Source: Spirosoma panaciterrae DSM 21099
GTDB taxonomy: Bacteria > Bacteroidota > Bacteroidia > Cytophagales > Spirosomataceae
Reading direction: 5' to 3'
Assembly (NCBI RefSeq): GCF_000374025.1
Contig: NZ_KB893172.1
Location: 372,001 to 436,000, forward strand
DNA: 64,000 nucleotides
The position numbers and the translations under genes were made by a program. How positions within the stretch are numbered: position 1 is the first letter of the stretch; each line of letters starts with the position of its first letter. A model generated the notes under the pieces. The model searched no databases, was not told where the DNA came from, and was given only the letters and a program-made list of their open reading frames with translations. Below, piece by piece: positions 7,480 to 21,463 of the stretch.

Positions 7480-9375
7480 ATGCTGGAAAGACCCCTTACC
7501 GATTGGTTGCCGCTCACAAAACAGGAAGTTGACAAGAGAGGCTGGGACGAAGTGGATATTGTGCTGGTGTCGGGGGACGCCTATGTTGACCATCCGGCTT
7601 TCGGAACGGCCGTTATCGGTCGGATTATGGAAAGCGAAGGGTTTCGCGTAGCCATTATTGCCCAACCCAACTGGAAAGACGATCTACGCGATTTCAAAAA
7701 ATATGGTCGCCCAAAATATTTCTTTGGCGTAACCGCTGGCTGTATGGATTCGATGGTGAATCACTATACGGCCAACAAACGCCTGCGTTCCAATGACTCC
7801 TATACACCTGGTGGCGAAGCGGGTTTCCGTCCCGACTACGCGACTATTGTGTATGCCAACATTCTGAAAACGCTGTATCCAGATGTGCCCGTACTGCTCG
7901 GTGGTATCGAAGCCTCCCTACGTCGGGTCACCCACTATGACTATTGGCAGGATAAACTGATGCCGTCGATTCTGGTCGACTCGGGGGCTGATATGCTGGT
8001 GTATGGCATGGGGGAACAACCACTCCGCGAAATCCTGAAGCTGGTCCGGAAAAACGTGCCATTTTCGTCGATGCGCAACATCAATCAGGTGGCGTTTATG
8101 CACGATGCCAGTACCGAACTCCGTGATTACAACAACTGGAACACGGTCGAACTGTCGAGTCATGAGGAGTGTCTGGACGATAAGATTAAGTACGCGGCTA
8201 ACTTCAAGATTGTTGAAGTTGAGTCGAATAAGTGGCAGGCGAATCGCATTACGCAGAAAGTTGGCGATCAGGTACTGGTGATTAATCCGCCGTTCAAAAC
8301 GATGGACGAAACCGAGATCGACAAGTCGTTCGATTTGCCCTACACGCGTTTGCCCCACCCGAAATACAAAAAGCGTGGCCCAATTCCCGCCTACGAAATG
8401 ATCAAGTTCTCGGTCAATATGCACCGGGGCTGTTTCGGCGGTTGTAGCTTCTGTACCATTTCGGCGCACCAGGGCAAATTTATTGCCTCACGGAGCGAAA
8501 AATCGGTGATGCGCGAGGTTGAAGAGATTACGAAACATCCTGAATTTAAAGGGTATATTTCGGACCTGGGTGGCCCATCGGCCAACATGTATAAGATGAA
8601 GGGCAAAGACGAGTCGATCTGTGCCCGTTGCCAGAGCCCGAGTTGTATTCACCCGGTTATCTGCTCGAACCTCGATACCTCGCACAAACCCCTGACGCAG
8701 CTATATCGTCAGGTCGATGCCCATCCAAAAATCAAGAAAGCGTTTGTCGGTTCGGGAGTTCGGTACGATTTGCTGGTCGATGACTTCAACAAAAACAACG
8801 AAGACGGCAACCACGACGAATACATGGAGCAACTGACGACCCGCCACGTTTCGGGCCGGTTGAAGGTAGCCCCTGAACATACCGCCGACGATACCCTGCG
8901 GATCATGCGGAAGCCGTCGTTCAAATATTTCAAGCTGTTCAAGAAAAAATACGATCAGATTCAGGAGAAGCACAACCTCAAGCAACCCCTGATTCCGTAC
9001 TTTATTTCGTCGCACCCCGGCTGTGAAGAGCAGGATATGGCGAACCTGGCTGCCGAAACCAAAGACATGGGTTTTCAGCTCGAACAGGTTCAGGACTTTA
9101 CACCCACCCCCATGACGGTGGCCGAGGTGATCTATTACTCTGGGGTGCATCCCTATACGCTGAAACCCGTAAAAACGGCCAAGACCCGCGACGAAAAGCA
9201 GGCGCAAAACCGCTATTTCTTCTGGTACAAACCCGAATACAAAGACTGGATTCGGAACCGCCTGAACAAGCTCAACCGACCCGATCTGGCAGAGAAACTG
9301 CTGGGTGGGCCGAAAAAAGAAAAATCGGGTAAACCATCGTTTAACCGGAATTTTTCCGGCAAGAAAAAGCGGTAA
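7480..9375 (+). CDS. ygiQ: YgiQ family radical SAM protein
   Basis: A 631-residue protein with the YgiQ/UPF0313 layout. An N-terminal domain (DIVLVSGDAYVDHPAFGTA) is followed by a B12-binding-like region, the radical SAM core with the 4Fe-4S CxxxCxxC motif at Cys318, Cys322 and Cys325 (GCFGGCSFC), and a conserved C-terminal block (VQDFTPTPMTVAEVIYYSG). The last residues are basic and Lys-rich. Length agrees with the family. Proteins of this type cleave S-adenosylmethionine to start radical chemistry, but the substrate of YgiQ is unknown. It appears monocistronic, with a strong terminator downstream. Confidence 0.95.
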   Translation: MLERPLTDWLPLTKQEVDKRGWDEVDIVLVSGDAYVDHPAFGTAVIGRIMESEGFRVAIIAQPNWKDDLRDFKKYGRPKYFFGVTAGCMDSMVNHYTANKRLRSNDSYTPGGEAGFRPDYATIVYANILKTLYPDVPVLLGGIEASLRRVTHYDYWQDKLMPSILVDSGADMLVYGMGEQPLREILKLVRKNVPFSSMRNINQVAFMHDASTELRDYNNWNTVELSSHEECLDDKIKYAANFKIVEVESNKWQANRITQKVGDQVLVINPPFKTMDETEIDKSFDLPYTRLPHPKYKKRGPIPAYEMIKFSVNMHRGCFGGCSFCTISAHQGKFIASRSEKSVMREVEEITKHPEFKGYISDLGGPSANMYKMKGKDESICARCQSPSCIHPVICSNLDTSHKPLTQLYRQVDAHPKIKKAFVGSGVRYDLLVDDFNKNNEDGNHDEYMEQLTTRHVSGRLKVAPEHTADDTLRIMRKPSFKYFKLFKKKYDQIQEKHNLKQPLIPYFISSHPGCEEQDMANLAAETKDMGFQLEQVQDFTPTPMTVAEVIYYSGVHPYTLKPVKTAKTRDEKQAQNRYFFWYKPEYKDWIRNRLNKLNRPDLAEKLLGGPKKEKSGKPSFNRNFSGKKKR

Positions 9376-14552: not shown

Positions 14553-15728
14553 ATGCTCTATTATCGTACACGTAATCGGGGAGGGTTTAGGTTGGTTACC
14601 TGCAAACGAATGCTATCGGTAATTCGTCGTCGGAAGGTCCAACTCCTGGTTTTACTGGCCTTTGTCGGGATTGCCGTACAGGCTTGTTTTAGTCCGAATC
14701 AAGCGGCTGAGACTCATCCGTCTGCGTTGGATTTCAGTCAATTTCCCCTGAAAAAACTCTCAGAATACGGTTTTTTTAAAGGCGATTTGAACGCGTTGCA
14801 GCCCAACGATCGGGTGCTGGCTTATGAGCCTGCCGCTACCCTGTTTACAGATTATGCTTTCAAGCAACGGTTTGTCTGGATGCCCGAAGGTACATCGGCA
14901 ACGTTTGAGGCTTCGCAACCCGACGAGCCACTGAACTTTCCTGACCGAGCCATTCTGATTAAAAATTTCTATTACCCTGCCGATTTTTCGAAACCTACTG
15001 GCCAACGGCGTATTGTAGAAACGCGTTTACTGGTGAAACAGAGTGGTGTCTGGAAAGCATATCCCTATCGCTGGAACGATGAACAAACCGAAGCCGACTA
15101 TAAAGTAACGGGCCAAACCATTCCAGTAGGCTGGAAAGACACAAAGGGGCAGTTGCAGAGCATCCGTTATGCCATGCCCAATAAAAATCAGTGTAAAAGC
15201 TGCCATACCCGCAACGACATTCTGATGCCCATTGGCCCTAAAGTGAAGCAACTAAATCACCCGTATGCCTATGCTGATGGCATCGAAAACCAGCTCAGCC
15301 GCTGGATGAAGATGGGGTACCTGAAGGCTACACCCGAAGCCATTGCCAACGTTACGCCCATGGTAGCCCTAAACGACCCCAACGCTTCGCTCGATGCCCG
15401 CGCCCGTTCGTACCTCGATGTCAACTGTGGGCATTGTCATAACCCTAAAGGTCCAGCAAGTACATCGGGGTTGCTGCTGAATTACGAAGAAAAAGATCCG
15501 TTTCACTGGGGTATATTGAAGTCGCCGGTGGCGGCTGGCATTGGGGCGGGGCCTTACAAGTTCGATATTAACCCCGGTCAGGGAACGGCTTCTATTATGA
15601 CCTTCCGTATGAACTCCGTTCACCCCGGTATTATGATGCCCGAGCTAGGCCGTGTCAGTATTCACCAGGAGGGAGTTGAATTGATCACCCGGTGGATCAA
15701 CTCGTTGAAAAAAGAGCAATACCGTTAA
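14553..15728 (+). CDS. SO2930-family diheme c-type cytochrome lipoprotein
   Basis: A 391-residue protein from ATG 14553; ATG 14610 is an alternative that places the lipoprotein signal (lipobox VQAC) nearer the N-terminus. It has two CxxCH heme sites: CKSCH at residues 214-218 and CGHCH at 292-296. The conserved segment PEGTSATF and a final helix (ELITRWINSL) fit the TIGR03806 family. It would carry electrons in the periplasm, anchored to a membrane. It is probably in an operon with the beta-helix gene just upstream and ends at a strong hairpin. Confidence 0.9.
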   Translation: MLYYRTRNRGGFRLVTCKRMLSVIRRRKVQLLVLLAFVGIAVQACFSPNQAAETHPSALDFSQFPLKKLSEYGFFKGDLNALQPNDRVLAYEPAATLFTDYAFKQRFVWMPEGTSATFEASQPDEPLNFPDRAILIKNFYYPADFSKPTGQRRIVETRLLVKQSGVWKAYPYRWNDEQTEADYKVTGQTIPVGWKDTKGQLQSIRYAMPNKNQCKSCHTRNDILMPIGPKVKQLNHPYAYADGIENQLSRWMKMGYLKATPEAIANVTPMVALNDPNASLDARARSYLDVNCGHCHNPKGPASTSGLLLNYEEKDPFHWGILKSPVAAGIGAGPYKFDINPGQGTASIMTFRMNSVHPGIMMPELGRVSIHQEGVELITRWINSLKKEQYR

Positions 15729-15732
15729 CCGC

Positions 15733-15774
15733 TTCGAGCCTGATCGGAAACGGACGTTCTGGATCAGGCTCGAA
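15733..15774. terminator. Bidirectional terminator between cytochrome and HD-Pnk genes
   Basis: A 13-bp perfect stem (TTCGAGCCTGATC and complement) with a 16-base loop lies between two convergent genes and is followed by an A/T-rich tail. Confidence 0.75.
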
Positions 15775-15783
15775 AATAAACGA

Positions 15784-16893
15784 TTAGCTTACCTCAAAAA
15801 TCACCTCATGGGCTTCCCAAATGGCCGGAACCTCCAGTTTTTCCAGCATTCGACTAACGGCTGGCTCGGGTACCACGTACGTCCGGTTCTGGTTCTGCTC
15901 AGCCCGCCGGGTGTTGGGTACTTCCAGATAGACCAGCTTCACCCAGGCTCCATAGGTTACGAATAAATCGATCAGTTGCGAACGCAGGTTCCGGGTTATG
16001 TTGGTGGCATTCCAGACAAACGGTTGCCGACTTCGTAAATATGACCTTGCCTGTTCCTTCGCCATTTGCACAACCCGCCCGGTACCCCTTCGATCCAGCG
16101 GATCGATACCATACTGTCGTCGAATGACATCCAGGCTAACCACGGGCCAGTCCCGATAATGCGACAGAATGTAATAATCTTTCCCCACACCCGGTAAGCC
16201 ACTCATGACAACAACCGTTGTTTTTGTCTCGTCAAACAACGGAAAGTCTGGCGAAAGGTCGTCGCGCCGGAAGTACTGAAACCGGGTCAGGTTCGACGCA
16301 AACGGATAAGGCTTTCCAAAGCAATTCTGTTCCCGGCAAAGCTCTTCGAACAGATCAATTCGGTACAATAGCTCATCCTGATCGACGCAGACTCGTCCCA
16401 GCACATCTGCACGAGCCAGCAGACTAAGCCAGGCTGTGTTGACCTCCAGACTGGCCTGCAACAACGACTGGCGCGGATTCTCTTTTTCGAAAATCCAGAG
16501 CGGCAAGCCATGATAGCGAACGAGTTTGGCAATGGCTTCCCGCTGCGCAAAGGGTGTCGGAATCGTGTCGTATAGCAGCAGTCGAGCGGTTTGTTCCCCT
16601 TTGCGGGCGTGGCCTTTCGACGTGATCCGGCCATCATCTTCCTGCACGGTCGTCGAGCGTTTTTCTACGTCGTGTAGTAAGGCAGCAGCCCAAAGAATGG
16701 CTTGTTCGCCGGTTGGTAATGCCTGATAGTCCGGTAACGATACCAAAGCTTCGAGTACCATACGGGTATGCGTGGCTACATCCCCTTCGGCATGATGGAT
16801 CGGATCTTGCGGAACACCAACCATATCGCGGACGAAATCGAATTGATGCAACAGGTCGGGCCAGCTTTTTCGGTCGGTTAATTGCCAGGTCAT
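15784..16893 (-). CDS. HD-Pnk: HD phosphoesterase fused to 5'-OH polynucleotide kinase
   Basis: A 369-residue bifunctional end-healing enzyme. I chose ATG 16893 because it forms an ATGA overlap with the ligase stop and follows a strong GGAGG; a start 18 bases earlier is possible. The N-terminal half is an HD phosphohydrolase domain with His-Asp at 74-75 (AALLHDVEKRS) and further His at 34, 42 and 128. The C-terminal half is a P-loop kinase with GLPGVGKD (Lys238), the SLDVIRR motif (Asp255, Arg258) equivalent to the polynucleotide-kinase acceptor site, and a lid segment NATNITRNLR. The architecture matches Runella slithyformis HD-Pnk, shown to remove 2',3'-cyclic, 3'- and 2'-phosphates and to phosphorylate 5'-OH ends. 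Confidence 0.9.
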   Translation of the reverse strand: MTWQLTDRKSWPDLLHQFDFVRDMVGVPQDPIHHAEGDVATHTRMVLEALVSLPDYQALPTGEQAILWAAALLHDVEKRSTTVQEDDGRITSKGHARKGEQTARLLLYDTIPTPFAQREAIAKLVRYHGLPLWIFEKENPRQSLLQASLEVNTAWLSLLARADVLGRVCVDQDELLYRIDLFEELCREQNCFGKPYPFASNLTRFQYFRRDDLSPDFPLFDETKTTVVVMSGLPGVGKDYYILSHYRDWPVVSLDVIRRQYGIDPLDRRGTGRVVQMAKEQARSYLRSRQPFVWNATNITRNLRSQLIDLFVTYGAWVKLVYLEVPNTRRAEQNQNRTYVVPEPAVSRMLEKLEVPAIWEAHEVIFEVS

Positions 16894-17588
16894 GCCTTCC
16901 TCCTTTCCCACGCTAAGGGAGCGCGTTTCCAGGTGCGTGTCCAGTGCTCATCGGTCTGAACATGCCCTTTACGAACAAACTTAAAAACCCGATGTGGAAA
17001 CGCTTCGACGGAGTACGATGCTGCATCCCGAGAAACAACTCCTTCCATCGTACACGGTTCGCCCGTTTGGGCATCGACAGAGCCAAACCGACTTTCCTGA
17101 CTGGCAAACCACCGGATTTCTGTTTCAATGTTGTTGGGTTGCAACGGCTCCATTGCATTACCTAGTTCGGGCACTGTTGGGAAATCGAGTAAGCGGGCGT
17201 AAAACTGCGTTTCTTCCCACGACAACCAGACGTCCTGTTCGCGCACGGCAAAAACAAAGAAATGATTTTCCAGCCGTTCGTACCGGATGGAATGGACCGC
17301 AAACAGATTTTCGCCAAAGATTTCCAGATTGCCCAGATCGTGCCGGATCAATTCCCATCGTTGGCGGATGGTACGAGTCCAGGGTGATGTGGTTGGGGCT
17401 GCATGGGAACGGGCAAAAACGCCATAGCGGCTCAGACAGTTGTTTTCGCCATCCAGTTTTTCGGTATGGATAAGCGTTCGAATGTGGGCCAGGTCCGATG
17501 CATAGTCGTCGTTAATGCGGTCGTCGCTGGTAGTGCCGGGCGAAAAAGGATAATGGTACGTTCGGCCGTACTTGGTTGATAAAGCCAT
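16890..17588 (-). CDS. ATP-dependent RNA ligase family protein
   Basis: A 232-residue minimal nucleotidyltransferase of the RNA-ligase superfamily. The adenylated lysine is Lys44 in motif I (EKLDGEN). Motif Ia (FARSHA) follows, then motif III (EIFGENLF, 89-96), motif IIIa (FFVFAVRE), motif IV (MEGVVSRD, 181-188) and motif V (FKFVRKG, 202-208). There is no OB-fold or extra C-terminal domain, so it is short for an RNA ligase. It is the first gene of a pair with HD-Pnk, whose start overlaps its stop (ATGA). It would seal 5'-phosphate and 3'-OH ends produced by HD-Pnk. RNA rather than DNA as substrate is inferred from family and context. Confidence 0.9.
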   Translation of the reverse strand: MALSTKYGRTYHYPFSPGTTSDDRINDDYASDLAHIRTLIHTEKLDGENNCLSRYGVFARSHAAPTTSPWTRTIRQRWELIRHDLGNLEIFGENLFAVHSIRYERLENHFFVFAVREQDVWLSWEETQFYARLLDFPTVPELGNAMEPLQPNNIETEIRWFASQESRFGSVDAQTGEPCTMEGVVSRDAASYSVEAFPHRVFKFVRKGHVQTDEHWTRTWKRAPLAWERRKA

Positions 17589-17807
17589 CTGTCAAAAAAT
17601 TAGATACTACGATAAACACACGGCCTTCGGGGAGAAGGCTCTTTAGCAATGCCCAGTGTCGATTCGTATTACATGGCTTTTCAAACGGGTTTTGCGCGGT
17701 TGGTAGCTTCGCGCTGAGCAAAGATAAAAAATAGCAACCATTCCGCTATATTTCAGTCAAATAGCTACTACAAGTGGGCGTTTTGCCCATATAAAAATAG
17801 ATAATCC
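17589..17807. promoter_or_regulatory. Divergent promoter region of the RNA-repair locus
   Basis: This 219-bp AT-rich gap separates the ligase/HD-Pnk pair (-) from kptA (+) and must carry both promoters. On the minus strand 17726-17719 reads TATCTTTG, an exact match to the Bacteroidota -7 form TAnnTTTG, though no well-spaced -33 TTG was found. On the plus strand TATATTTC near 17746 is a weaker candidate. No operator palindrome is obvious. Confidence 0.4.
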
Positions 17808-18362
17808 ATGTTAAACGATGAGGAAGCTCAACGTGTGAGCAAATTTCTGAGTTTAGTGCTTCGCCATAAACCTGAAACACTTGGTATAACCCTTAATGAA
17901 CAAGGGTGGACCGATGTAGATAGATTGTTGACAAAGCTTTACCATAGAGGCTACCAAATCAGTCGAGATCAGCTAAAGTATATTGTAGAAACCAACAATA
18001 AAAAACGCTTCGCCTTTAGTCTGGATGAAAGCCAAATCCGAGCGAACCAGGGCCATTCGGTGGAGGTTGATTTGGGATATGTCGAAAAGCAGCCACCAGC
18101 ATTGCTATATCATGGTACTGCAATGCGATTTATAGACTCGATCAAGGCTGATGGTTTGCGAAAGATGAATCGCCACCATGTACACTTAAGCAGCGATGAA
18201 CAAACGGCTTATATGGTTGGGAGCCGTCATGGAAAGCCCGTTGTTCTCACCATAAAAGCGGGCGAAATGGCAATGGCCGGACACGTTTTTTACCAGTCCG
18301 ATAATGGCGTCTGGTTAACCGATACCGTGCCAACGGCCTATATTATTGTTAGAAATTTATAG
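17808..18362 (+). CDS. kptA: RNA 2'-phosphotransferase (KptA/Tpt1)
   Basis: A 184-residue protein with both Tpt1 lobes. The N-terminal RNA-binding lobe has FLSLVLRHKPE, with the catalytic pair Arg19-His20, and IRANQGHS with Arg78. The C-terminal NAD-binding, ADP-ribosyltransferase-like lobe has YHGT, MNRHHVHLS with Arg122, and GSRHGKPVVL. It transfers an internal RNA 2'-phosphate to NAD+, giving ADP-ribose-1'',2''-cyclic phosphate. In eukaryotes it finishes tRNA splicing; the bacterial substrate is unknown. It diverges from the ligase/HD-Pnk pair. It is clearly AT-richer than its neighbours: I counted 49 G/C in its first 120 bases, against 33 in a 60-base stretch of the ligase. Confidence 0.95.
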   Translation: MLNDEEAQRVSKFLSLVLRHKPETLGITLNEQGWTDVDRLLTKLYHRGYQISRDQLKYIVETNNKKRFAFSLDESQIRANQGHSVEVDLGYVEKQPPALLYHGTAMRFIDSIKADGLRKMNRHHVHLSSDEQTAYMVGSRHGKPVVLTIKAGEMAMAGHVFYQSDNGVWLTDTVPTAYIIVRNL

Positions 18363-18500
18363 AAATCTATACTGTCTAGTAGGTAAGTATGTCAGGCAAA
18401 AAGTGAAGCTCTATCGTTATAACTAACCCATGGGTCGCTTTTAGGTGCTACCGCAAGGTAAGAGTACCCAGTTTTTTTAATCATAGGTTAACGTAAGACA

Positions 18501-18524
18501 CCCTCCTGTCGGTTGGCAGGAGGG
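18501..18524 (+). terminator. Terminator after kptA
   Basis: Stem CCCTCCTGTC / GGCAGGAGGG (one wobble pair), loop of 4, followed by ATGTTTT. It sits between kptA and the GH115 gene. Confidence 0.65.
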
Positions 18525-18544
18525 ATGTTTTCAATCGGTTTCTT

Positions 18545-21463
18545 ATGCGGATCATTTTCATCATTTTCGTGGCCTGCCTGTCTCCCTTAATTGCGCTGTC
18601 TATCGACACTCAGGCCTATGTGACGAACCAACCGGGTACGGGCTATTTTACAATAGTTGCCAACGGGAAAGCGACGCCATTCATAACCAGTACCGGAGAG
18701 TATCCTGGGGTAATACGAGCGCTGAAAAATCTACAGGCCGATATAAAGCAGGTAACCCAGATACTTCCCATTCTGAAAACGGATAAGGACCTGTATACCA
18801 AAGAAATCGTGCTGGTTGGTACACTGGGAAAAAGCCCCCTGATTGATCGGTTGGTACAGACAAAGAAACTGGATGTGACTGGTGTCGTCGGTAAATGGGA
18901 GACGTTCATGACACAAATTGTCGATCAGCCCATACCGGGTGTTGATCGGGCGCTGGTCATTGCCGGAAGTGATAAACGGGGTACTATTTATGGCCTTTAT
19001 GACCTGTCGACTCAGATAGGCGTATCGCCCTGGAACTGGTGGGCCGATGTACCTGTCAGTCCGCAGTCGTCACTGTATGTAGTGCCGGGCCGCCATACAC
19101 AGGGAACGCCGGCGGTTAAATACCGGGGCATTTTCATCAACGACGAAGCGCCTGCTCTGTCGGGTTGGGCAAAGGAGAAATTTGGCGGCTTCAACCACAA
19201 GTTTTATGAGAAAGTATTTGAGCTGATCCTTCGCCTGAAAGGAAATTACCTTTGGCCTGCCATGTGGGGAAGTGCGTTCTACGACGATGATAACCTGAAT
19301 CCGTACCTGGCCAACGAATATGGGGTGGTGATTGGCACGACACACCACGAACCCCTTATGCGGGCTCACGACGAATGGCGACGCTACGGTAAAGGCCCCT
19401 GGAACTATCAGAAAAATGAAACCGCTCTCCGTGATTTCTGGAAAGAGGGGATCCGGCGAATGGGAGCCAATGAAAGTATTGTCTCCGTCGGAATGCGAGG
19501 AGATGGCGATGAGCCCATGAGTCGCGAAAGCAACATCGCGCTGCTGGAGCGAATTGTGGCCGATCAACGTAAAGTTATTGGTGAGCTTACGCATAAAGAC
19601 CCTTCAGAAACCCCGCAACTCTGGGCACTATACAAAGAAGTACAGGACTATTATGACAAAGGTATGCGGGTGCCCGACGATGTGACGCTACTCCTTTGCG
19701 ACGATAACTGGGGGAATATCCGCAAGCTCCCCGCTCTGGGTACCCCCAAACGGCAGGGTGGTTATGGTATTTACTACCACTTCGATTATGTCGGTGGGCC
19801 CCGCAACTACAAATGGCTGAACACTAGTCCTATTGCCCGTACCTGGGAACAGATGCATCTGGCGTATGAACATGGGGTTGATCGCATCTGGATCGTAAAT
19901 GTCGGTGATATTAAGCCAATGGAATTTCCCATTGAGTTTTTTATGGATTATGCTTGGGCTCCTGACCGCTGGCCTGCCGAACGGCTGGAGGCCTATGCAT
20001 CGCTATGGGCAGAGCGTCAGTTTGGGCCGAAACACGCCCTGGCCATCGGGCGCATCCTTCAGAAATACACCAGCTACAACAGCCGCCGAAAGCCTGAATT
20101 ACTCACGCCCGATACCTATAGCCTTACCCATTACCGCGAAGCCGAAACCATTGTCAATGAGTACAATGCGTTGCTTCGGGAGGCTGAGCAGATTTATAAT
20201 GATCTGCCGGCCGATTATCGGGATGCCTATTATCAGCTAGTGTTGCATCCGGTACGAGCCTGTGCCAACCTGAACGAACTGTACGTAACCGTAGCTAAAA
20301 ATCGCCTGTATGCAGCGCAAAGGCGATCCCTAACGAACAAACTGGCACAACGGGCCAGGGAGCTGTTTGAGCGTGATGCCCAAATTACGCGCTATTATAA
20401 TGATACACTGGCCAATGGGAAATGGCATCACCTGATGGACCAAACGCATATTGGCTACACCTACTGGCAACAACCCGACAAAAACAGGATGCCCGACGTG
20501 AAAATGATTGATGAGCCAGCAACAGACGAAATGGGTATAGCTGTCGAAGGGTCGGACGATTGGTGGCCTTCAGCAGCTACAAAGCCGGTGTTGCCCGTTA
20601 TCAATTCTTTCCAGAATCAGTCCGTTTATTTTGACGTATTCAACCGGGGTAAAACACCATTTACCTGTACGATCGAAGCCCCGGTTCCCTGGTTGAAAAT
20701 TCTTTCGGGGAGCCGGATAACCGACGAGGAACGCCTAGCCGTTCGGGTTATCGACTGGAAAAAAGTCCCCATCGGCGTCCATCGGGTTCCAATTACAGTC
20801 AGTGGATTTAATGGCAGCCAGACGATTGTGATCGAAGCCGTCGTTGAACACCTCACAGAGCCGAAACGCACCGACATGAATGGGTTTCTGGCGAGTGATG
20901 GTTATGTGTCGATGGAAGCCATTCACTACACCAAAGCCATTCAGTACGATTCAATTCGGTGGGGGGCAGTACCGGATGTTGGACGTACCGGAGCCGGAAT
21001 AATGATTTTTCCGGTTACAGCACCCGCTCAGGAGAACCTCAATGCAATGAGTCCTCATCTGGAATACCGAATTTATGCCGCAGATACGGGTAGGGTCAGG
21101 GTACAAACCTATCTATCGCCAACACTTAATTTCAACGAGAACAAAGGGTTACGCTTTGCCCTATCGTTCGATGACGAAACCCCTCAGGTGATTGATATGC
21201 ATGCCGGTGAAACGAATAAAAGCTGGGAGCAATCCGTCGCAAACAATATCCGTGTTCTGATGTCGCAGCATACCTTGGTCAAACCAGGCGAACATATTCT
21301 GAAATTCTGGATGGTAGATCCGGCCGTGGTGCTCCAAAAAATAGTGGTTGATTTGGGTGGGTTAAAAGCAAGCTACCTCGGCCCCCCCGAAAGCTTTTAC
21401 CGAACCCAGGAAACCTCTGTGGAGATCGGCAAACAATTTAAACTCAAACGACAGATAGATTGA
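18545..21463 (+). CDS. Glycoside hydrolase family 115 (xylan alpha-1,2-glucuronidase)
   Basis: A 972-residue protein with a signal peptide (hydrophobic 3-19, cleavage near the first 20 residues). The central GH115 catalytic region includes KYRGIFINDEAPAL, LKGNYLWPAMWG, GTTHHEPLMRAHDEW and GMRGDGDEPMS. The C-terminal part has the beta-rich domains usual for the family. GH115 enzymes remove (methyl)glucuronic acid side groups from glucuronoxylan in the periplasm or outside the cell. The next two genes are a Nudix-like regulator and xylose isomerase, which supports a role in xylan use. Confidence 0.94.
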   Translation: MRIIFIIFVACLSPLIALSIDTQAYVTNQPGTGYFTIVANGKATPFITSTGEYPGVIRALKNLQADIKQVTQILPILKTDKDLYTKEIVLVGTLGKSPLIDRLVQTKKLDVTGVVGKWETFMTQIVDQPIPGVDRALVIAGSDKRGTIYGLYDLSTQIGVSPWNWWADVPVSPQSSLYVVPGRHTQGTPAVKYRGIFINDEAPALSGWAKEKFGGFNHKFYEKVFELILRLKGNYLWPAMWGSAFYDDDNLNPYLANEYGVVIGTTHHEPLMRAHDEWRRYGKGPWNYQKNETALRDFWKEGIRRMGANESIVSVGMRGDGDEPMSRESNIALLERIVADQRKVIGELTHKDPSETPQLWALYKEVQDYYDKGMRVPDDVTLLLCDDNWGNIRKLPALGTPKRQGGYGIYYHFDYVGGPRNYKWLNTSPIARTWEQMHLAYEHGVDRIWIVNVGDIKPMEFPIEFFMDYAWAPDRWPAERLEAYASLWAERQFGPKHALAIGRILQKYTSYNSRRKPELLTPDTYSLTHYREAETIVNEYNALLREAEQIYNDLPADYRDAYYQLVLHPVRACANLNELYVTVAKNRLYAAQRRSLTNKLAQRARELFERDAQITRYYNDTLANGKWHHLMDQTHIGYTYWQQPDKNRMPDVKMIDEPATDEMGIAVEGSDDWWPSAATKPVLPVINSFQNQSVYFDVFNRGKTPFTCTIEAPVPWLKILSGSRITDEERLAVRVIDWKKVPIGVHRVPITVSGFNGSQTIVIEAVVEHLTEPKRTDMNGFLASDGYVSMEAIHYTKAIQYDSIRWGAVPDVGRTGAGIMIFPVTAPAQENLNAMSPHLEYRIYAADTGRVRVQTYLSPTLNFNENKGLRFALSFDDETPQVIDMHAGETNKSWEQSVANNIRVLMSQHTLVKPGEHILKFWMVDPAVVLQKIVVDLGGLKASYLGPPESFYRTQETSVEIGKQFKLKRQID

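Follow-up and report, generated by a model that had tools for sequence, protein, structure and literature searches.

The 64,000-nucleotide stretch of Spirosoma panaciterrae DSM 21099 analyzed here (contig NZ_KB893172.1, positions 372,001 to 436,000, forward strand; hereafter the window) carries genes for a minimal ATP-dependent RNA ligase and for HD-Pnk, an HD phosphoesterase fused to a P-loop polynucleotide kinase, together with a divergent gene for the NAD+-dependent RNA 2'-phosphotransferase KptA/Tpt1. Two observations carry our interpretation of this locus: the ligase gene bears a conserved folded leader, and KptA co-occurs genome-wide with the ligase–HD-Pnk pair. We favor, with a probability of roughly 0.55, a reading in which the pair is a chromosomal operon for the repair of RNA breaks whose translation the leader holds down, and KptA is a partner not usually linked to it.

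The leader RNA of the ligase gene

A preliminary description of this DNA had treated the 219 bp separating the ligase and KptA genes as a promoter gap. The length stands, but the gap is not promoter only, being mostly structured ligase leader (about 17589–17690), and this RNA is new beyond that description. In Bacteroidota, the ligase leader carries the motif GYCAUGUAAU, usually 77–97 nt ahead of the start codon (GCCAUGUAAU in the window). Of 103 bacterial ligase loci, 93 (81 distinct) have the looser pattern NTGTAAY 95–255 nt ahead of the conserved start region of the ligase; some genomes enter this count twice, and we estimate a chance expectation of about 0.08 per locus. Across the 3.67 Mb of DNA examined, GYC[AGT]TGTAAT occurs 120 times; 72 of these precede a called ligase, and not one precedes a called KptA. 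Upstream of the ligase, a TAnnTTTG match (TATCTTTG in the window, a promoter-like −7 box of what we take to be the Bacteroidota type) and a block with CCATGTAAT are common to all seven aligned loci of the Spirosomaceae family. The covariance models of Rfam 15 gave no match at E up to 1 in positions 15500–18700.

With respect to folding, leader cores compared with dinucleotide shuffles gave a median z score of −2.57, with 61 of 81 below −2, as against a median of −0.19 and 7 of 70 below −2 for control stretches just upstream of the leader. In a 19-row alignment, the pairing of the two helices holds in 90.2% of cells, with 21 two-sided changes, and neither value was reached in any of 500 shuffles; the number of two-sided pairs was reached in 7 and the number of pair types in 16. 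Slid versions of the same helices pair in at most 42.5%. A 6-row alignment pairs in 94.8%, and its anti-start helix is uninformative because it never varies there. The Sphingobacteriaceae alignment yielded a different, weaker consensus, and the leader fold is therefore not one shared architecture.

The leader GYCAU is complementary to the ligase start AUGRC, and the start codon was paired in five predicted folds; in the window, AAAGCCAU pairs with AUGGCUUU. The z scores of the other four folded leaders range from −3.3 to −4.9. Among 52 distinct leader–start pairs, the base at leader position −2 changes in concert with the first base of codon 2 (C-G 19, U-A 12, U-G 10, others 11), with permutation values, kinship ignored, of 0.002 when G-U pairs are counted and 0.001 when they are not; on the same footing, position −4 covaries weakly (0.05 and 0.04). 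At least four contiguous pairs can form in 37 of the 52. The leader thus seems to hide the ligase start codon, an arrangement that could let cells switch RNA repair on when needed.

The gene pair and its association with KptA

In a sample of 150 genomes of the family, 26 have HD-Pnk (called at E < 1e-100) and 24 have the ligase, which in every case adjoins HD-Pnk. A ligase match also lies directly upstream of HD-Pnk in every one of 80 named loci, these being the best 80 of 342 relatives (Bacteroidota, Xenorhabdus and Budvicia, with one genome giving two loci); L115 and L132, at the least, have one that is apparently broken. Of the 39 HD-Pnk genomes in the order sample, 37 gave a ligase match, in some cases weak, distant or on another contig. 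Because the remaining neighbors vary from clade to clade, the ligase and HD-Pnk constitute a self-contained two-gene unit. Among Enterobacterales, Xenorhabdus (L155, L157, L165, L166, L171) and Budvicia (L142) carry the pair at 52–59% identity, pointing to transfer from Bacteroidota. At the Xenorhabdus loci AAAATGTAATAC occurs upstream, though with no evident counterpart of the leader fold.

Linkage of KptA, judged within fetched flanks of up to 10 kb, was found at only 4 of the 80 named loci, namely Spirosoma sp. 48-14 (with the same divergent layout), Runella sp. MFBS21, Runella zeae and Ferruginibacter. KptA also adjoins the pair in genome G103, presumably R. slithyformis, as is PDB entry 7kw8, to which the KptA of Runella locus L063 is identical over residues 5–178. 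A conserved three-gene synteny was thus rejected, and the preliminary description, which had called the locus complete, overstated the case. It had proposed a check of co-occurrence and synteny, holding that missing synteny in related genomes would weaken an RNA-repair reading; since synteny is absent from most related loci, that objection applies in part, whereas co-occurrence supports a tie of KptA to the pair. Linkage in Spirosoma, Runella and Ferruginibacter nonetheless exceeds a rough Poisson expectation of 0.08–0.13, the inputs to which are approximate.

At the level of whole genomes, KptA is present in 13 of 26 family genomes with HD-Pnk versus 11 of 124 others, leaving out a KptA remnant in G134 (Fisher 5e-6; within-genus permutation 0.00015), and in genomes of at least 5 Mb the figures are 12/24 versus 10/83. 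In the order sample of 194 genomes, they are 34/39 versus 35/155 (Fisher 1e-13), or 35/41 versus 34/153 when the partial matches in G404 and G450 are counted. Counted by genus, the level at which alone kinship was controlled, KptA is found in 21/24 versus 19/69, the latter figure being obtained by subtraction from the tally. A further 48 HD-Pnk genomes, mainly from outside the order, gave a KptA match in 37, five of these only partial or broken (G516, G536, G539, G542, G558); the Chitinophagaceae among them, placed by genus name, gave 23 of 25. A general Chitinophagaceae sample, unsorted as to HD-Pnk and including some of the same genomes, contained KptA in 68 of 294. KptA was found in 16 of 198 genomes of the phylum sample, where strong HD-Pnk occurs only in the window genome. 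On the KptA tree, the pair-linked proteins fall in three places, a distribution compatible with one origin. A short N-terminal KptA remnant sits inside a cassette of HNH and methyltransferase-HIT genes (L078, near 8098–8262), and another lies about 3 kb from a ligase–HD-Pnk pair (L045, near 9897), which suggests loss of KptA.

Full-length HD-Pnk was encoded in a single one of 50,697 phage records (LR756500.1), where the ligase is 54 bp from it and KptA about 56 kb away. Of the 145 KptA stretches in IMG/VR, the 80 that were listed include none of the eight contigs with HD-Pnk, nor was the pair found within the flanks of KptA in those 80. Five large IMG/VR phage contigs (L173, L174, L175, L177, L178) have one to three genes between ligase and HD-Pnk, one of them, in L173, coding for an HNH protein. 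KptA and the ligase accompany HD-Pnk in at least 10 of 42 plasmid records (KptA was found in 70 of 72,556, and 60 of the 70 were listed), and size confounds this co-occurrence because most of the ten plasmids are megaplasmids.

Proposed mechanism and alternatives

The protein assignments of the preliminary description were borne out. The ligase, with the Lys44 of KLDGEN in place, matches Pfam family PF09414 at 98.1 bits (cut-off 27), and this lysine of the KxDG motif is invariant in 19 aligned rows. Its fold is of the T4 Rnl2 type, with the alignment stopping at Rnl2 residue 231–233 of 317–319; the C-terminal domain of full-length T4 Rnl2 is lacking from the 232-residue window protein, which is therefore an Rnl2-like core and not a full Rnl2. 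A sequence search of the PDB with the ligase gave spurious matches only. HD-Pnk combines an N-terminal HD phosphoesterase (PF01966, 25.4 bits, cut-off 22) with a C-terminal P-loop kinase (PF13671, 74.3 bits, cut-off 27), the latter resembling the Clostridium thermocellum polynucleotide kinase, and its structure model has a predicted local distance difference test score of 93.1. The HD metal residues and kinase motifs (H40, H48, H80-D81, H101, H134, G241-x-GK, D261, R343) are invariant in 22 homologues. Because the ligase stop and the HD-Pnk start share an ATGA (4-nt overlap), the HD-Pnk start is most likely at 16893; the consensus of homologues gives no support to a longer reading frame from GTG 16911. 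KptA scores 178.8 bits with Pfam family PF01885 (cut-off 26) and 261.3 with NF002014 (cut-off 239), and it keeps R19, H20, R67 and R122 along with H102-G103-T104. These correspond to the Arg-His-Arg-Arg tetrad and HGT motif that PMC6333775 names.

Table 1. Features of the window locus (positions are those of the window).
Feature	Position	Strand	Basis
HD-Pnk, 369 aa	15784..16893	−	PF01966 and PF13671 over cut-off; start from ATGA overlap
ATP-dependent RNA ligase, nucleotidyltransferase domain only, 232 aa	16890..17588	−	K44 in KLDGEN
AUGGCUUU, ligase start codon region, predicted paired by leader	17581..17588	−	predicted fold
Conserved structured 5' leader of ligase gene	about 17589..17690	−	conservation, fold
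Apical hairpin of leader, GCCUUC-loop-GAAGGC	17623..17639	−	centroid fold; alignment A9
GCCAUGUAAU element	17668..17677	−	conserved leader motif; holds GCCAU (17673–17677)
AAAGCCAU, leader strand holding GCCAU (17673–17677), can pair with ligase start	17673..17680	−	predicted fold
TATCTTTG, promoter-like −7 box, ligase operon	17719..17726	−	TAnnTTTG match
KptA/Tpt1, NAD+-dependent RNA 2'-phosphotransferase, 184 aa, divergent	17808..18362	+	PF01885, NF002014, active-site residues

In terms of mechanism, the family relationships suggest that HD-Pnk would clear 2',3'-cyclic, 3'- or 2'-phosphates and phosphorylate 5'-OH ends, after which the ligase, self-adenylylated on K44, would seal them. The heal-and-seal logic of the preliminary description thus fits the families, the fold and the obligate pairing of these two genes, with RNA as the presumptive substrate. 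The folded leader would repress translation of the pair by binding GYCAU to the ligase start, a pairing that the covariation supports; this putative translational switch may open in response to some sign of RNA damage or of failing translation. KptA would then remove 2'-phosphates beyond the reach of HD-Pnk, such as internal ones, presumably on the same RNAs as the pair. The Runella slithyformis HD-Pnk is reportedly active on RNA ends including those with a 2'-phosphate, an activity that would make KptA dispensable for simple repair. More tentatively, and at somewhat less than even odds, the leader of the Bacteroidota operon may represent an undescribed class of RNA, no literature search having been aimed at the leader itself; it would sequester the ligase start and act as a built-in switch for RNA damage or failing translation, with KptA as a third arm that is seldom linked. 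If KptA is indeed the third arm of a heal, seal and clean system, bacterial KptA would act on the products of repair. A passage in PMC6333775 treats the role of bacterial KptA as a standing puzzle. That KptA co-occurs strongly with a single ligase-healing pair, and sometimes shares a gene cluster with it, points to both a partner and a testable substrate; likewise the conserved folded leader would, if the model is correct, show how repair enzymes are controlled, and it offers an easy reporter of the natural signal of damage.

Several results weigh against the repair-operon reading. KptA is near few of the named pairs, and the idea that it shares the leader was rejected, as none of 22 KptA genes has one. 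Of 18 loci from deeper in the order, counting the window and a single member of the family, 10 have GYC-NTGTAAY, 3 have NTGTAAY only and 5 have neither. The fold of the window leader is less convincing than those of the other leaders (z −1.99, with 8 of 200 shuffles as good), and RNAalifold returned 0 pairs, hence no consensus structure, for one wide alignment of 56 mixed rows, after which clade alignments were used. Position −3 shows no covariation in the 52 leader–start pairs (p 0.57), 15 of these form three contiguous pairs or fewer, and the permutation behind positions −2 and −4 disregards kinship. The activities of all three window proteins are predictions from sequence, and PMC1997131 reports that the Deinococcus radiodurans relative DRB0100 adenylylated itself and sealed neither DNA nor RNA in vitro.

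KptA may be a chance neighbor and the pair by itself the unit, the association reflecting shared ancestry and large genomes that gather accessory RNA enzymes. The 4/80 linkage, the leaderless KptA genes and the often large size of HD-Pnk genomes all fit such an account. We nonetheless regard it as rather unlikely: the association persists within genera, by genus and in genomes of at least 5 Mb, the adjacency in Spirosoma, Runella and Ferruginibacter is above the rough chance estimate, though the KptA tree is compatible with one origin, and the accessory methyltransferase-HIT family, the sole specificity control of its kind, is not associated with HD-Pnk in the family sample (3/14 versus 23/136). 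For the leader, AUGUAA could instead be a minimal start-stop frame for the sensing of initiation or termination, the base before UGUAA being A in 75, G in 3, U in 3 and C in none of 81 cases, always a bacterial start codon, and U following UAA in 79. This is unlikely in our estimation, given that CAU is complementary to AUG as well and that codon 2 covaries with position −2; moreover, the pattern is partly built in, because only TGTAA followed by T or C counted as a match.

The occurrence of the pair or the ligase in large phages and megaplasmids raises the prospect of a mobile defense or counter-defense set whose sole use is in conflicts with phages or toxins. The three proteins had no PADLOC match at E up to 1, however, and no defense genes were recognized beside the pair, the neighbors of which are only partly annotated, so a role confined to conflict appears quite improbable. 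It is very doubtful, too, that the pair mends breaks in DNA and not RNA, a role claimed for D. radiodurans HD-Pnk: the title of Schmier and Shuman 2018 ties that enzyme to resistance against ionizing radiation and mitomycin C, and DRB0098-0100 is radiation-induced (PMC1978522).

Related systems and neighboring genes

The Runella slithyformis HD-Pnk and Tpt1 belong to the same two enzyme families as the window proteins, and the Runella L063 cluster unites KptA, a ligase of the window family and HD-Pnk. In that cluster, KptA has an upstream position on the same strand, in the company of HNH and methyltransferase-HIT genes, whereas the window KptA is divergent and both of these genes are absent beside it. 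In D. radiodurans, relatives of HD-Pnk (29% identity) and the ligase (33%) are encoded close together, and by gene order we equate this locus with DRB0098-DRB0099-DRB0100, a published operon and relative of the pair (PMC1997131, in part). A macro-like/TIGR02452 gene separates HD-Pnk from the ligase there, unlike the 4-nt overlap of the window, and no KptA was seen in the 10-kb stretch. The nick-sealing RNA ligases of T4 (Rnl2) and Naegleria share 15–18% identity with the window ligase, which has no room for their second domain. The Pnkp1-Rnl-Hen1 complex (PMC4411300) follows the same principle of healing and sealing, and its kinase domain is related in fold (4xrp), but the window has an HD domain in place of the other phosphatase type and no Hen1 gene beside it; the bacterial Pnkp model TIGR04075 scores 35.5 bits with window HD-Pnk, below its cut-off of 750. 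Fungal Trl1-Tpt1 tRNA splicing would work alike, through healing, sealing and NAD+-dependent 2'-phosphate removal, if KptA acts on the same RNA; it is not homologous as a whole, and a junction 2'-phosphate is hypothetical for the window ligase.

In L063 and L066, where KptA is found beside the ligase and HD-Pnk, its companions are an HNH_4 protein and a methyltransferase-HIT fusion, and in L063 the ligase leader sits between the methyltransferase-HIT and ligase genes. The cassette, with KptA between or beside its two genes, was observed at L063:5603-8137, L066:9537-11481, L045:2157-4640 and L079:7356-9857, and lacking KptA at L189–L191 and L194–L198. Its HIT domain could remove AMP or ADP-ribose adducts. 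The fusion is present in 14 of the 150 family genomes, 5 of which have an intact or split KptA. The G+C content of the window KptA gene (0.44; 0.43 at third codon positions) is below that of the ligase and HD-Pnk genes (0.52–0.53), perhaps reflecting a different history. Finally, a GH115 family glycoside hydrolase of 972 residues (18545–21463) adjoins KptA in the window, and a reading frame of equal length adjoins KptA in L092.
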